Positions 25,888 to 31,198 of a stretch of DNA of 31,455 bases are shown here, one piece after another. The translations under genes were made by a program, and so were the position numbers. Where the stretch lies: positions 1 through 31,455 of the IMG/VR virus record IMGVR_UViG_3300034190_000298. One strand, written 5' to 3'. This DNA is from a virus. The notes below the pieces were generated by a model, which was given only the letters and a program-made list of their open reading frames with translations, ran no database searches and was not told where the DNA came from. The stretch's first letter is position 1, and each line of letters starts with the position of its first letter.

Positions 25888-26223
25888 ATGACAGTTTATA
25901 TTGTCCAAGACGTTCCTGGAAGGAACTTCGTCCCTGCAGCTAAGTACGGGGAACTCGTTTCGCTACTCCCAGCGAAAACGAACCTGATGCTTACAACGGG
26001 GCCAGAGGTAGCACGCCTCAAACGAAAGCTCATTGATTTCAATGACGACGATTACCTACTTCTTGTTGGTGACCCTGCCGCTATCGGTCTATGTTGCGCA
26101 GTAGCTGCGGCAATAAATGGCCGGTTTACGGTACTGAAATGGGATCGCCAAGAGATGACGTACTACCCCGTATCGTTCGATATTAGGGGTGGCTCACAAG
26201 AACTAGGAGAATTACATGTCTGA
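25888..26223 (+). CDS. Conserved phage protein at head of replication operon
   Basis: 111 residues. It begins 'TVYIVQDVPGRNFVPAAKYG' and contains 'FNDDDYLLLVGDPAAIGLCC' and 'NGRFTVLKWDRQEMTYYPV', a pattern I recognise from a short protein that opens replication modules of many marine phages. Its function is not known to me. It has the strongest Shine-Dalgarno in the window (AAAGGAG) and follows promoter-like element A, so it should be made early and in quantity. It overlaps the next gene by eight bases. Confidence 0.75.
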   Translation: MTVYIVQDVPGRNFVPAAKYGELVSLLPAKTNLMLTTGPEVARLKRKLIDFNDDDYLLLVGDPAAIGLCCAVAAAINGRFTVLKWDRQEMTYYPVSFDIRGGSQELGELHV

Positions 26224-26797
26224 TGAAAAAGATACACCGTTATCCTTCGAGGAATTAACAGGTGCAGCTTCGCAAGAAGAATGGAACGAATCGACACTCG
26301 ATAGCGAGTTCGCAAAGATCAGTGCTACTGCAACAAAAATGCAGGAACTGCAAAAAACGATAGCATCTTTAGAAGATGACCTAAAGCAAGCCAAAGAAGT
26401 CCTCCGCGTTGTAGAAGAACAGGAGCTACCCGAGGCGATGCAAGCGGCGAATCTTAAAGAGATTAAACTAACAAACGGTGCCAAAGTCACGATTAACGAG
26501 TTCTATAAAGGGTATATCTCGGAAAAGAACCGCGAAAAAGCGCACGCTTGGCTCCTCGCAAACAACCACGGCGGCATAATTAAGCACGAAGTCAACCTAA
26601 AGTTCGGTAAGGACGAAGGGGATAAAGCTGCAGACGCCGTAGCAAGTCTTCAACAGAAGGGGTTAGACCCAGCTGTTAAAGAGAGTGTTCATCCGCAAAC
26701 GCTAAATGCATTTGTGAAAGAACAGATGACGAGCGGGAAAGACCTTCCTGCAGACCTATTCGGGATATTCGTCGGATCCCGCGCCAAACTAAAATAG
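26216..26797 (+). CDS. Conserved phage replication-module protein, coiled coil
   Basis: 193 residues, ATG 26216 with AGGAG before it. Residues about 35-75 form a coiled coil ('KMQELQKTIASLEDDLKQAK'), followed by 'LPEAMQAANLKEIKLTNGAK', a beta-type part 'VTINEFYKGYISEKNREKAH', 'WLLANNHGGIIKHEVNLKFG' and a C-terminal 'VHPQTLNAFVKEQMTSGKDL'. The combination is a conserved family found just before SSB-like and primase genes in marine phages. Function unproven; a DNA-binding or recombination-accessory role is possible because of the neighbours. It lacks any ATP-binding or nuclease motif. Confidence 0.75.
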   Translation: MSDEKDTPLSFEELTGAASQEEWNESTLDSEFAKISATATKMQELQKTIASLEDDLKQAKEVLRVVEEQELPEAMQAANLKEIKLTNGAKVTINEFYKGYISEKNREKAHAWLLANNHGGIIKHEVNLKFGKDEGDKAADAVASLQQKGLDPAVKESVHPQTLNAFVKEQMTSGKDLPADLFGIFVGSRAKLK

Positions 26798-26808
26798 AGG
26801 TAACTCAT

Positions 26809-27606
26809 ATGGCTGATAAGAAAGTTGCTGAGGCTTCGTCCTCAGATTTGATACCCTTCGATGACGATTTGTTATCGGCAGGTACTGGACTCGAAGAAGC
26901 GAGTGCAGATGATTACGCGATTCCGTTTTTGCGGATTCTACAATCAATGTCGCCACAGCTTAAAAAGAGCGACGGCAAATATATCCAAGGTGCCGAGGAA
27001 GGAAACTTTTTCAATACCGTTACCGAATCGGTATACGATGGCACTGAAGGCGTGATGATAATTCCTTGTGCCTACAAGAAAAAGTATATCGAATGGGTTA
27101 CACGGGAAAACGGTGGCGGGTTCGTATCTGATGACCATGCAGCTTCGATTCTTAAAGAATGTAAGAAAGACGATAACGGTCGGTTTATTTGGACGAATGG
27201 CAACCAGATCGCAGAAACTGCAGAGTATTACTGTATCTTAGCGCAAGACGAAGATGCGCCAGAGCAGGTTTTGTTAAGCCTTACATCCTCGCAGCTTGGC
27301 TTTTCTCGACGTTGGAATACTATGCTGAACAACGCACGGGTAAATAACGCGAAAGGTGAAACGGTAGCTGCGCCGATGTTCTCTTATATGTACAACCTAA
27401 AGACGATTGCTCAATCGAATGACCAGTACAGCTGGATGGGACTATCTGTAGAAAAGAGTAGACCTACACCTATGCCACTGGCCATGGCTGCGCTCGACTT
27501 CATGAAAGCCGCACGTTCTGGTGCAGTAGAAGTTAGACAAGAGCAGGAAGGAGCAGCAGCCTCAGCTGAGGCAGAAGTAGTCGACGGAGACGATGTCCCG
27601 TTTTAG
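26809..27606 (+). CDS. Probable single-strand DNA-binding-type protein with SSB-like tip
   Basis: 265 residues, AGAGGT before the ATG. The body contains 'YAIPFLRILQSMSPQLKKSD' (about 36-55), then 'EGVMIIPCAYKKKYIEWV' and 'LLSLTSSQLGFSRRWNTMLN', typical of a conserved phage replication-module family. The end is Ala/Glu-rich and finishes 'VDGDDVPF', very close to the 'DFDDDIPF' tip of bacterial SSB, which docks partner proteins such as helicases and nucleases. The primase and UvrD-like helicase genes come next. The tip and place suggest the phage's ssDNA-binding protein or recombination mediator, but I do not see a clear OB-fold by eye, so the body's function is inferred. Confidence 0.72.
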   Translation: MADKKVAEASSSDLIPFDDDLLSAGTGLEEASADDYAIPFLRILQSMSPQLKKSDGKYIQGAEEGNFFNTVTESVYDGTEGVMIIPCAYKKKYIEWVTRENGGGFVSDDHAASILKECKKDDNGRFIWTNGNQIAETAEYYCILAQDEDAPEQVLLSLTSSQLGFSRRWNTMLNNARVNNAKGETVAAPMFSYMYNLKTIAQSNDQYSWMGLSVEKSRPTPMPLAMAALDFMKAARSGAVEVRQEQEGAAASAEAEVVDGDDVPF

Positions 27607-27623: not shown

Positions 27624-29147
27624 ATGTCAATACACGAGCAGTTTGCCACCCGTTTCGTGGGGTTGAGACACGGCTATAGTGTCTTTACCCCGACGAAAGA
27701 AACACGGGAAGATGGCAAAGCGAAAGGGAAATATGTAACTATTTCACAAACGCTCAACCAGAAAGAGTTATTCGCTATCTGGGCAGAGCATATTAGAGGG
27801 GAAAGAAGTCTCGGTATCGTACCGATTGATGAGAATAATATGTGTTCGTGGGGGTCTATAGACATAGACGATTACCCGCTAGATCTCAAAGCGTTAGCTA
27901 AAAAGATCAAGAAGTTCAAGCTACCTATGGTCGTTACACGATCGAAGAGTGGCGGAGCGCATATCTTTATGTTTGTATTTGACCCAGTTCCTTGTTCTAC
28001 GATGCAACGTAAACTGAGACAAATATCCGCAGCGATAGGCTTTGGTCAGTCTGAGGTATTTCCTAAACAGACTAAGCTCTTGTTAGCAAGAGGAGATAGA
28101 GGAAGTCCGTTACAGATGCCGTATTTTGGCGGCGAAGACTCTACTAGCTATGGGTTCGGTGCCACTGGCAACGTCCTTACGCCAACAGAGTTTTTGGATT
28201 ACTGTGAAAGTATCGTCCTTACTGAAGAAGAACTGGATAAGCTCGAAGTCACGCCTATCTTAGAAGATATGGAATGGCTCGACCACTCACCGCCATGCCT
28301 AGAGCATTTGATTGCTCAAGGTTTCCCGAAAGGTATGCGTAACTCTGGGCTGTTTAACGTGGGAGTATTTCTGCGTAAAAAGTTTCCAGACGATTGGGAA
28401 GGTCGGCTAGAGCAGATAAACCACAAACACTTTAGCCCACCGTTGAGTGCGCAAGAAGTGTTGTCGGTAGCAAAGCAAGTTCAGAAAAAGGATTACTTCT
28501 ATAAGTGTAACGACCAGCCGATAGCTGGCCATTGCAACAGCCCACTGTGCCGTACACGCAAGTTCGGTATCGGTGCGTCAGGAGGTACGCCTTTGTTTAG
28601 TAACTTGACTAAACAGAATAGTGATCCACCAATCTGGTTCTTAGATGTCGAAGGCGGCAGGCTAGAACTCGAGACGGAGGAGTTACTTAACCAGACTCGG
28701 TTCCAACGAAAGTGCATGGATAGCCTCAACATTATTCCGCCGAAAGTACGGGATAACGTATGGCGCACTATTATCCAACAGCTTCTCGATACGCTGACAA
28801 TTATCGAAGTACCAAAAGATGCTTCGACAGAAGGTCACTTTAACGAGTTGTTAGAAACATTTTGTACCGAAAGACCGGCTAGGGAACGGGACGAGCTACT
28901 ACTTGGTAAACCTTGGACAGATAAAAGCAGGACGTATTTCCGTTTAGCTGACCTAATGGACTTCTTACACCGTAAGAATTTCAGGGATTACCCTCGTAAT
29001 AAGCTAACCGCCAAGCTCAAGAATATGGGCGGCGATTCGCATTTCTTTAACATCAAGGGCAAGGGCGCTAACGTCTGGCATATACCAGAGTTCCAAGCGC
29101 AAAACGAATCCCATTCGTTGCCTGAGTTCAACGACTCACCCTTGTAA
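27624..29147 (+). CDS. AEP-family primase (TOTE-like primase-polymerase)
   Basis: 507 residues. Archaeo-eukaryotic primase motifs: metal-binding D-x-D at Asp80/Asp82 ('WGSIDIDDYPLD'), motif II 'SKSGGAHIFMF' with His113, and 'EVFPKQTKLLLARGDRGSPL' then 'QMPYFGG' (about 144-170), which matches the 'FPKQ...LPYFGG' pattern of TOTE-type phage primases. A possible zinc knuckle follows: Cys295, His303, Cys304 and Cys309. The C-terminal 180 residues look like a helical or winged-helix accessory domain. It should make primers (perhaps also extend them) at the replication fork. AAGGGTGAG precedes the ATG; the stop overlaps the helicase start by one base (TAATG), so primase and helicase are co-translated. 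Confidence 0.88.
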   Translation: MSIHEQFATRFVGLRHGYSVFTPTKETREDGKAKGKYVTISQTLNQKELFAIWAEHIRGERSLGIVPIDENNMCSWGSIDIDDYPLDLKALAKKIKKFKLPMVVTRSKSGGAHIFMFVFDPVPCSTMQRKLRQISAAIGFGQSEVFPKQTKLLLARGDRGSPLQMPYFGGEDSTSYGFGATGNVLTPTEFLDYCESIVLTEEELDKLEVTPILEDMEWLDHSPPCLEHLIAQGFPKGMRNSGLFNVGVFLRKKFPDDWEGRLEQINHKHFSPPLSAQEVLSVAKQVQKKDYFYKCNDQPIAGHCNSPLCRTRKFGIGASGGTPLFSNLTKQNSDPPIWFLDVEGGRLELETEELLNQTRFQRKCMDSLNIIPPKVRDNVWRTIIQQLLDTLTIIEVPKDASTEGHFNELLETFCTERPARERDELLLGKPWTDKSRTYFRLADLMDFLHRKNFRDYPRNKLTAKLKNMGGDSHFFNIKGKGANVWHIPEFQAQNESHSLPEFNDSPL

Positions 29148-30640
29148 TGTTAAAATCGAATGCACAAATAATCCTTGGGCCTCCAGGAACAGGGAAAACG
29201 AGCACACTACTAGGGCTATTAGAAGAAGAATTAGATCGGGGGACTTGCCCAGAAGACATTGGGTTCTTCACCTTTACCAAACAAGCGGTACAGGAAGGCA
29301 AGACTAGGGCGATGTCAAGGTTTGCGATAACGAATGGACAGTTACCGTATTTTAGAACCTTACATTCTCTTTGCTTTTTCCAGTTAGGGCTGTCGAAAGA
29401 TAGCGTCATGAGTTCGAGAGATATTGGTGATTTAAACCAGAAGTTGAACTTGCGTCTAACTGGCTCTATTAGTTCCGAAGAAGGACATATCTCGAGCATC
29501 TCTAAAGATGACCGATTATTGTTCATAGAAAACCTTGCTCGAATGAGACAGGTAAATTTAGAAACCCAGTGGCACGATTCTGATGACGTGGTGGGTTGGT
29601 TTGAACTAGAGCGGTTCGCGAACGGATTACGACTGTTTAAGGATGACAGACTGCTTATCGACTATACCGATATGTTGCAACTGTTTTTAGATCGAGGTCG
29701 TGCTCCGAAGTTAGATGTAATGTTCGTAGACGAAGCTCAAGACTTATCGCCGTTACAGTGGGCGGTAGTTCGTAAGTTATGTGAATCAGCGGATCGTATT
29801 TATATCGCAGGCGATGATGATCAAGCGATCTATCGTTGGGCGGGTGCCGACGTTGATTATCTAATTCGTAATTCAAAAGACGCGATGATTTTAAAACAGT
29901 CTTATCGCGTTCCATCTTCGATACATAAGCTCGCGCAAAACTGTATCGGGCAGGTTGTTTCGCGAGTACAGAAAAGCTGGAACCCTCGTAAAGAAGCTGG
30001 ACACGTTTCGTGGGAACCGTCTTACGAAACGATCGACATGGAAAGCGGTGAGTGGTTAGTGCTTGCTAGGACAAACTACTTACTAAATGGGATCGAAGAA
30101 CATTGCCGGTCAGAAGGCTGGTTCTATAAAAGTAAAAACCGCAACTCAGTTTCTGAGAAAAAAGTCAAGGCGGTGCGCGATTGGGAAACTCTGCGGCAGG
30201 GCGGTGAAATACCGATCGTAGATCTTACCAAAGTCTTAAATTATATGAAGATCCGCGTACCTATCTCCCTAGAGAGAAACGACTTTGATACTAATATCTC
30301 ATTTGATCAGGCGCAGCAGTTCGTACCTGACCTTAAAAAAGAATATTGGTACGACTTGTTCGACGGAATCTCAGTTTCGGAACGCAGCTATATTCGTGCG
30401 ATGCTTAGACGAGGAGAAAAAATAACTAAAGAACCACGGATCAAGCTATCGACCATTCACGCAGCTAAAGGAGGTGAAGCTGAAAACGTAATCTTGCTAA
30501 CCGATATCTCGAACAGGATTTATAAATCGTACCAGTCAAACCCTGACGACGAGTCACGGGTGTTTTACGTTGGACTAACCCGAGCAAAGGAGAACTTGTT
30601 TTTAATTGAGCCGCAAACTCAAAAATACTTCCCGCTTTAG
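29147..30640 (+). CDS. UvrD/Rep-like superfamily 1 DNA helicase
   Basis: 497 residues. Motifs in order: Walker A 'GPPGTGKT' (11-18), Walker B 'DEAQD' (195-199), motif III 'GDDDQAIYRWAGAD' (222-235), 'QSYR' motif IV (251-254), motif V 'STIHAAKGGEAENV' (435-448) and motif VI 'VFYVGLTRAKENL' (472-484). All SF1A helicase motifs are intact; the protein is shorter than UvrD (about 720) because the 1B/2B subdomains are reduced. It probably unwinds DNA at the phage replication fork with the primase encoded just upstream. It has no ribosome-binding site of its own, so translation depends on coupling. It ends before promoter-like element B. Confidence 0.93.
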   Translation: MLKSNAQIILGPPGTGKTSTLLGLLEEELDRGTCPEDIGFFTFTKQAVQEGKTRAMSRFAITNGQLPYFRTLHSLCFFQLGLSKDSVMSSRDIGDLNQKLNLRLTGSISSEEGHISSISKDDRLLFIENLARMRQVNLETQWHDSDDVVGWFELERFANGLRLFKDDRLLIDYTDMLQLFLDRGRAPKLDVMFVDEAQDLSPLQWAVVRKLCESADRIYIAGDDDQAIYRWAGADVDYLIRNSKDAMILKQSYRVPSSIHKLAQNCIGQVVSRVQKSWNPRKEAGHVSWEPSYETIDMESGEWLVLARTNYLLNGIEEHCRSEGWFYKSKNRNSVSEKKVKAVRDWETLRQGGEIPIVDLTKVLNYMKIRVPISLERNDFDTNISFDQAQQFVPDLKKEYWYDLFDGISVSERSYIRAMLRRGEKITKEPRIKLSTIHAAKGGEAENVILLTDISNRIYKSYQSNPDDESRVFYVGLTRAKENLFLIEPQTQKYFPL

Positions 30641-30697: not shown

Positions 30698-31198
30698 ATG
30701 AATATCTTTGTAACTGACTCTTGTCCTGTACAAAGTGCGCGTGAACAATGTGATAAACACTGTGTGAAGATGGTTCTAGAATCTGCCCAGATGTTATCTA
30801 CTGCGTGGCGCGTATTTAATAACGAATATGCAGAAAAAGAGAGCTTGTACAAACAAGCGCATCTAAACCACCCATGTAGTATCTGGGTTCGTGAAGAGCC
30901 AGAAAACTACATCTGGTTATATCGACACTTTTCGGAGTTGTGTAAAGAGTATACACACCGCTACGGTAAAGAACATAAGTCGTCGAGGCTTTTGTGGTCG
31001 CTGTTCTGGCTACCCTTCCCTGATTACCGAATACAACGCGCAAATAAAAATCCAGAGGGCTTTGCGTTAGCAATGCCTGATGAATATAAATCCGAAGATG
31101 TTTACGCTTCGTACCGCAACTACCTGATTGGCGAGAAATCTTATTTCGCTAAATGGGTAAAAGACCCTTCAAGAAAACCAACATGGTGGATTAGTTAA
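30698..31198 (+). CDS. Conserved phage protein, 'CDKHCVKMVLESAQ' family
   Basis: 166 residues with AAAGGAG eight bases upstream. It opens 'MNIFVTDSCPVQSAREQCD' and 'KHCVKMVLESAQMLSTAWRV', then 'HLNHPCSIWVREEPENYIWL', 'ELCKEYTHRYGKEHKS' and ends 'KPTWWIS'. This is a widespread family of T4-like and marine phages, sometimes labelled pyrimidine-dimer DNA glycosylase, though I see no resemblance to T4 DenV and would not accept that function without evidence. The conserved Asp, Cys and His residues near the N-terminus could form a metal or active site. It is the first gene after promoter-like element B and overlaps the methyltransferase start by one base. Confidence 0.82.
   Translation: MNIFVTDSCPVQSAREQCDKHCVKMVLESAQMLSTAWRVFNNEYAEKESLYKQAHLNHPCSIWVREEPENYIWLYRHFSELCKEYTHRYGKEHKSSRLLWSLFWLPFPDYRIQRANKNPEGFALAMPDEYKSEDVYASYRNYLIGEKSYFAKWVKDPSRKPTWWIS

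Follow-up and report, generated by a model that had tools for sequence, protein, structure and literature searches.

Bacterial single-stranded DNA-binding protein (SSB) ends in a tip of the DDDIPF type. In phage T7, the tail of gp4 binds basic patches of the gp5 polymerase and the tail of gp2.5 has been implicated in contacts with the polymerase and the primase-helicase, as set out in excerpts of PMC5686142, PMC5997990 and PMC12593628. Enc34 ORF6, formerly a hypothetical phage protein, has proved to be an SSB of OB fold that carries an acidic tail (PMC5686142, in excerpt). In the titles and abstract openings of open-licence PMC papers (most T7 biochemistry is published elsewhere), no function is given for the gp34 family that we analyse here, and there is no mention of a match between SSB and primase tails across a range of phages. 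The gp34 of phage Pam1, an integrase according to an excerpt of PMC9382816, is distinct from the present gp34 protein.

The window, that is the whole stretch of DNA analysed, is an entire virus record of 31,455 bases. Its gp34 gene is flanked by a Pam3 gp33-like gene and an AEP-type primase gene, with a UvrD-like helicase gene next and an SNF2-type helicase gene and a Pam3 gp32-like gene upstream; no polymerase gene was seen within the window before its end. The relevant features are the following:

25888..26223, + strand: Pam3 gp32-like protein (PF23992/phrog_5888), a conserved neighbour, from profile matches
26216..26797, + strand: Pam3 gp33-like protein (PF23984/phrog_2378), a conserved neighbour, from profile matches
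26809..27606, + strand: gp34-like open reading frame (ORF; PF23977/phrog_2402) of 265 aa, with a predicted OB-like core and disordered ends
27526..27606, + strand: acidic C-terminal linker and tail of gp34, residues 240-265 plus stop (pLDDT 50-60), the linker variable and the end conserved
27589..27603, + strand: DDVPF, the proposed C-terminal tag of gp34, from the sequence and the ends of relatives
27624..29147, + strand: AEP-type primase (phrog_21866, PF22548), from profile matches; it is proposed to carry the tag as well
29100..29144, + strand: primase tail (residues 493-507), disordered in the model (pLDDT <50), with the end NDSPL
29147..30640, + strand: UvrD/Dda-like SF1 helicase, candidate receptor, from profile matches; its own tail does not track the tag

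A pyrimidine dimer DNA glycosylase-like protein (PF03013, phrog_624) is encoded at 30698-31198, close to the end of the window.

With 225.9 bits against a curated cut-off of 27, gp34 belongs to PF23977 (Pam3_Gp34), and it matches the phrog_2402 profile at E 1.7e-67; both families are without assigned function in Pfam and PHROG. Relatives were found in 504/50,697 phage records at E 0.01 and in 505/50,697 at the loosest limit, E 10 (362 from Pseudomonas phages), with Pseudomonas Pbunavirus members among the carriers, and among the matches listed they are mostly hypothetical or unannotated. A scan of genome contigs, tried as a hint to the host, returned no relative. The gp33-like gene that precedes gp34 (L039:5295-5921) is annotated as a host-nuclease inhibitor in Burkholderia phage WTB.

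A preliminary description of this DNA noted that the protein encoded from 26809 ends in VDGDDVPF. We confirmed this terminus, which reads AEVVDGDDVPF followed by the stop, although the span of 27583-27606 assigned to it encloses only DGDDVPF plus stop, the quoted V beginning at 27580. As in bacterial SSB, the DDVPF end consists of acidic residues closing on hydrophobic-Pro-Phe. Since composition predicts [DE][DE][ILVM]PF at a single C-terminus with a chance of about 5e-6, the tip is not a chance ending. First, among close relatives whose C-terminus is complete, 33/33 end in [DE][DE][VI]PF (L016 and L036, whose C-termini are cut, were left out of this count). Second, across 35 distinct close gp34 genes Pro(-2) and Phe(-1) are invariant with synonymous codons in use (Pro CCG 24/CCA 11; Phe TTT 32/TTC 3), position -3 is V or I from five codons, positions -4 and -5 are D or E only, and positions -6 to -14 of the linker vary freely. 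Invariant residues despite synonymous changes, next to a variable linker, indicate in these aligned genes that the tip is under purifying selection.

Relatives at about 35% identity have mostly DEIPF-like ends, DDHF and DDPF being among the exceptions. From the family at large we assembled a dereplicated set of 59 members by dropping eight rows (five near-duplicates and the three divergent members L172, L186 and L188). A terminal F, Y or W is present in 50/59 of this set versus 36/496 other ORFs of the same loci; none of the three divergent members has an aromatic end, and the count that includes them is 50/62. The strict tip, [DE][DE].?[ILVM]PF, occurs in 13/59 members versus 4/496 other ORFs of the loci, namely an annotated SSB and three primases. 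In the disordered N-terminus of gp34, LIPFDDD (26848-26868) resembles the tip read in reverse; it is kept in most close relatives and altered in L031-L033 and L077-L080.

Between lineages, the end of gp34 changes: it is EAEEF in a Pbunavirus member, DAEEF in Wifcevirus, GKKAPF in Ab19, GGKPVF in CN1, NSGEF in 2AB-P and FPDEM in VP2, and metagenomic lineages end in SEY, QDIV, EFAD and others, TEL also being found. On a tree of the gp34 core, computed without the last 30 residues and with L171 and L189 as long branches of unsure placement, the PF state changes at least six times on well-supported branches. The PF tip was therefore gained or lost repeatedly, and a single origin was rejected. Homologues without the tip, which had been put forward as the finding that would speak against its function, do exist; many of them, however, carry tails that track the primase tail, so their existence does not refute a docking role.

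Specifically, gp34 ends SEY, EEF, KKAPF, QDIV and TEL are accompanied by primase ends SEF, EDF, KKDPF, DIV and SEL, respectively. By clade, gp34 and primase end in DEIPF and NDIPF around L083, in SEY/SEF-type tails in L178-L183, in GDY and TGY in L177, in QDIV and ENIV in L189, and in EFAD and GEFS in L167 and L168. When the last three residues of gp34 and primase were compared by BLOSUM62 in 30 dereplicated genomes, the score was 4.93 versus 1.10 for shuffled pairs (P 5e-5), and 4.05 versus 0.26 (P 2e-4) when ten clades were permuted as blocks, a post hoc test with clades drawn by hand after the tails had been seen. Residues -5 to -12 in these 30 genomes did not match above shuffles.

For a fresh test, new loci were fetched by primase core motifs in three scans (best 80 each), the seed alignments of which came from phages with tails already seen. 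Among the 239 new primase loci so obtained from the best 80 of each scan, 216 have a gp34 homologue as neighbour of the primase and 215 yielded complete pairs, of which 94 were dropped (gp34 sharing 60% identity or more with a previously examined one) to leave 121 fresh pairs. A few contigs appear under two locus ids (L298/L393, L329/L387, L301/L406), a repetition absorbed by the cluster-level permutation, which is not a phylogenetic model. The last 2-4 residues of the 121 fresh pairs again match (P 5e-5 to 2.5e-4, with 44, 33, 21 and 10 clusters), there is no match in residues further in (P 0.22-0.77), and the broad ending class agrees in 83/121 pairs, or 19/33 by cluster. It is the protein sequence that keeps the two ends alike, since matching residues share a codon in 88/187 cases where 82 are expected, and the last 12 nt of the two genes are identical in 0/121 pairs. 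Gene conversion, considered as the cause of the match, is unsupported by these codon counts. Both tails are disordered in the models.

The correspondence extends to other kinds of primase. In datas, the gp34 end EAEEF is paired with GEDF on a VapE-like primase encoded about 17 kb away; in ECO71P1, the VapE-like ORF 00023 ends in KDEF and gp34 in DAEEF; the DUF5906 primases of Ab19 and CN1 end in KKDPF and KPPF beside gp34 ends KKAPF and KPVF; and in WTB the primase ends in DGGF and gp34 in EAEGF. On these sequences, the tail match recurs with unrelated, unlinked primases. Mismatched pairs also occur, namely FPDEM/SDTEE in VP2, NPF/PKE in L284 and IPF/EKM in L304 (gp34/primase).

Ten gene families occur in 25 or more of the 121 loci, and besides gp34 itself the primase is the only one that follows gp34; two families have too few clusters to test, and names other than primase and gp34 were assigned from length and ends. 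The helicase was rejected as a tag bearer, its tails not following gp34 in the 30 genomes or in the 121 loci (P 0.025 at a negative score in the latter, uncorrected for the families tested). The ends of a 621-aa family, the presumed DNA polymerase, do not match gp34 either (P 0.97, 121 loci), which is expected of a receptor and equally of any unrelated protein. It had been proposed that the tip recruits the phage's own helicase or primase. Because the gp34 tail covaries with the primase tail, the primase is probably itself a carrier of the tag and not its receptor, and the proposal has to be recast in this respect. By analogy with T7, gp34 and the primase are likely to offer a common tag to a single receptor.

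Our main reading, to which we assign a probability of roughly 60%, is that gp34 is an SSB, that its tag is shared with the primase tail, and that both dock on one replisome receptor. The folded OB-like core of gp34 would coat ssDNA, and its disordered acidic linker would present the C-terminal tag, one copy of a docking peptide whose second copy is found at the primase end. The two tags would dock in turn on the single receptor and thereby keep coated strand, primase and receptor tethered for handover, as reported for the gp2.5 and gp4 tails around T7 polymerase. This receptor would most likely be phage-encoded, with the polymerase as first candidate and the SF1 helicase as second, and the SSB-like tag of the window's clade could possibly also reach host SSB partners.

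PriA, RecO and the chi subunit are among the host proteins that bind SSB, and DDVPF might instead imitate the bacterial tip in order to recruit such proteins, the primase match then reflecting a shared host site. All tips in the window's clade have the bacterial form, [DE][DE][VI]PF, and the primase match appears weak at the sequence level: DDVPF faces NDSPL in the window, with agreement at Asp and Pro and not at the end, primases of near relatives end in DDSVL or DERII beside gp34 DDVPF, and the clade's mean score for the last three residues is -0.43. Since this clade keeps the PF tip with a weak primase match, recruitment of host SSB partners is a possible explanation here. Consistent with it, a PF00436 SSB was found in none of 50 related records (50/50 without), although PF00436 is uninformative on small phage SSBs because it missed the annotated SSBs of VP2 and VLCpiS6a. 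Moreover, a bacterial-type tip coexists with a private tag in L179 and L181, in which a small SSB-like protein ends in DDIPF and gp34 and primase have SEY/SEF-type ends, which suggests that some phages use both. Against this stands that a host receptor should keep the tip constant, whereas the SEY, QDIV and TEL lineages replace it yet keep the match to the primase; to our knowledge, these three tails are unlike any known bacterial SSB tip. On balance, we regard capture of host proteins as unlikely to be the main role of the tip.

Small SSB-like proteins that start with YDNxxxG (phrog_18154/7364) and have a bacterial-type tip were observed in at least 8 of the 50 related records (L206, L223, L231, L205, L244 and others), mostly where gp34 is without a PF end. 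In VP2-like records with the phrog_18154 protein gp34 is without PF, and the annotated VP2 SSB also has a DDDIPF-type tip. The notion that gp34 has the tip only when the phage is without another SSB was rejected, G027 having PF on both proteins. A 334-aa oxidoreductase-looking protein (phrog_4828) on a Pbunavirus-like contig (L226:1504-2505, - strand) ends in KFDDDIPF.

That the body of gp34 is no recognisable SSB, as stated in the preliminary description, holds by sequence: PF00436, the canonical bacterial SSB domain, is absent from its Pfam matches up to E 1, and a sequence search for a solved relative gave chance hits only. Profile comparison with T7 gp2.5, Enc34 SSB, T4 gp32 and phiC31 gp3 as single-sequence targets revealed no similarity (hhalign probability 0.3 or less for gp2.5 and Enc34 SSB). 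An AlphaFold2 model based on 57 family sequences has a mean pLDDT of 85, with a core (residues about 36-239) at about 95 and both termini disordered. The structure prediction that had been recommended as a check gave a mixed outcome, in that the best rows are mostly OB proteins but Z is 8.5 at most and Foldseek against the PDB gave no match at E <= 1e-3, RPA, SsbA and PrgE being among the weak rows. The top VIA-align row is a phiC31 integrase-RDF (gp3) fusion (Z 8.5), followed by BRCA2, the RB69 and T4 gp32 cores and a gp32-Dda complex (Z 6.2 to 5.4), and further down by PRD1 P12 and RPA (Z 4) and bacterial SSBs (Z 3 to 3.7); BFVD returned phage proteins named single-stranded DNA-binding protein (E 4.6e-4 to 1.2e-2). 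Because of these fold rows together with the gene order of a replication module, gp34 is most likely the phage's ssDNA-binding protein. Of the original SSB-like reading of the tip, what remains is a conserved docking-type peptide on a likely, predicted ssDNA-binding protein, the PF form being restricted to some lineages. In phiC31, the gp3 gene is the second one downstream of an exonuclease gene and lies upstream of primase and polymerase, so that gp3 may be kin of phage SSBs.

Alternatively, gp34 could be an OB-like accessory protein (an annealing protein, a nuclease-inhibitor partner or a recombination-directionality-like factor), with an acidic tail, the tail match then serving as a shared stability or processing signal. 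The lack of a Pfam or PHROG function for the family, the integrase-RDF fusion (Z 8.5) at the head of the structural rows, the other SSB-like protein in at least 8/50 related records and the host-nuclease inhibitor annotation of the preceding gene in WTB would all fit such a factor. Conversely, the gene order with primase, helicase and polymerase, the gp32, RPA and SSB rows in VIA-align and the terminal aromatic residue as in T7 gp2.5 argue for an SSB, and we judge a non-SSB role quite improbable. A similarly small chance is given to the idea that the gp34 core itself receives both tails in its ssDNA groove to tune DNA release, the primase tail displacing gp34 from the template, which agrees with tails reported to tune DNA binding in T7 gp2.5, T4 gp32 and Enc34 ORF6 (PMC5686142, in excerpt) and would explain a tag restricted to SSB and primase, but sits poorly with a single-chain gp34 model in which the tail is undocked and disordered.

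Returning to a tag shared by gp34 and primase, a wider generalisation can be offered tentatively and with more doubt than confidence: phages may place a private code at the C-termini of several replication proteins (SSB and primase, in some also exonuclease and helicase), to be read by a single receptor pocket. The copies of this code would change together as it drifts between lineages, and DDVPF would be one of its states. If so, private codes could keep the replisomes of co-infecting phages apart, or could direct proteins to a replication compartment. In BcepNazgul (L497, L499), a terminal GL is seen in 11/210 ORFs of 60 aa or more, including SSB, primase, exonuclease and helicase and four that end in DPAAGL, conceivably a genome-wide C-terminal tag. 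In Enc34 (L238), a [DE]EV end is found in 6/131 ORFs of at least 60 aa, among them SSB, primase and exonuclease, the remaining three being 191, 124 and 94 aa long. Our main reading proposes a function for a large unnamed phage family (505/50,697 records). It would also turn knowledge of the T7 tails into a testable replisome-wiring rule for phages that have primases of no relation to gp4, and could make phage SSBs and their receptor findable from sequence alone by seeking the protein that ends like the primase.

Compared to known systems, the gp34 core aligns in VIA-align with T4 and RB69 gp32 over most of its length (Z 5.9-6.0, 144-156 residues), at 6% identity and with Z below the level for a sure shared fold; T4 gp32 differs in its end, DDLLNDL. 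As a further parallel, the gene after gp34 in Ab19 and CN1 encodes an SF1 Dda-like helicase. We recognised no SSB in phiKMV and no clear SSB/primase tail match in SP6. Like bacterial SSB, gp34 closes, after a disordered linker, on acidic residues and then hydrophobic-Pro-Phe; unlike it, the body is not PF00436, and the tip is swapped in other lineages and follows the primase. Enc34 ORF6 belongs to a different Pfam family (PF10991, DUF2815), is shorter and is without a PF end, but in Enc34, too, SSB and primase end alike (both DEDEV), with DDDEV on the exonuclease. With respect to T7, gp34 has no detectable sequence kinship to gp2.5 (a single-sequence target), the primases of its phages are of AEP or VapE/DUF5906 type and not gp4, and the putative docking tag varies between lineages. 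Nevertheless, like tails on SSB and primase, as seen in T7 (gp2.5 DEDGDF and gp4 SNDTDF, or GDF/TDF), are found in the gp34 family, weakly in the window's clade, and in this respect the gp34 phages resemble T7.
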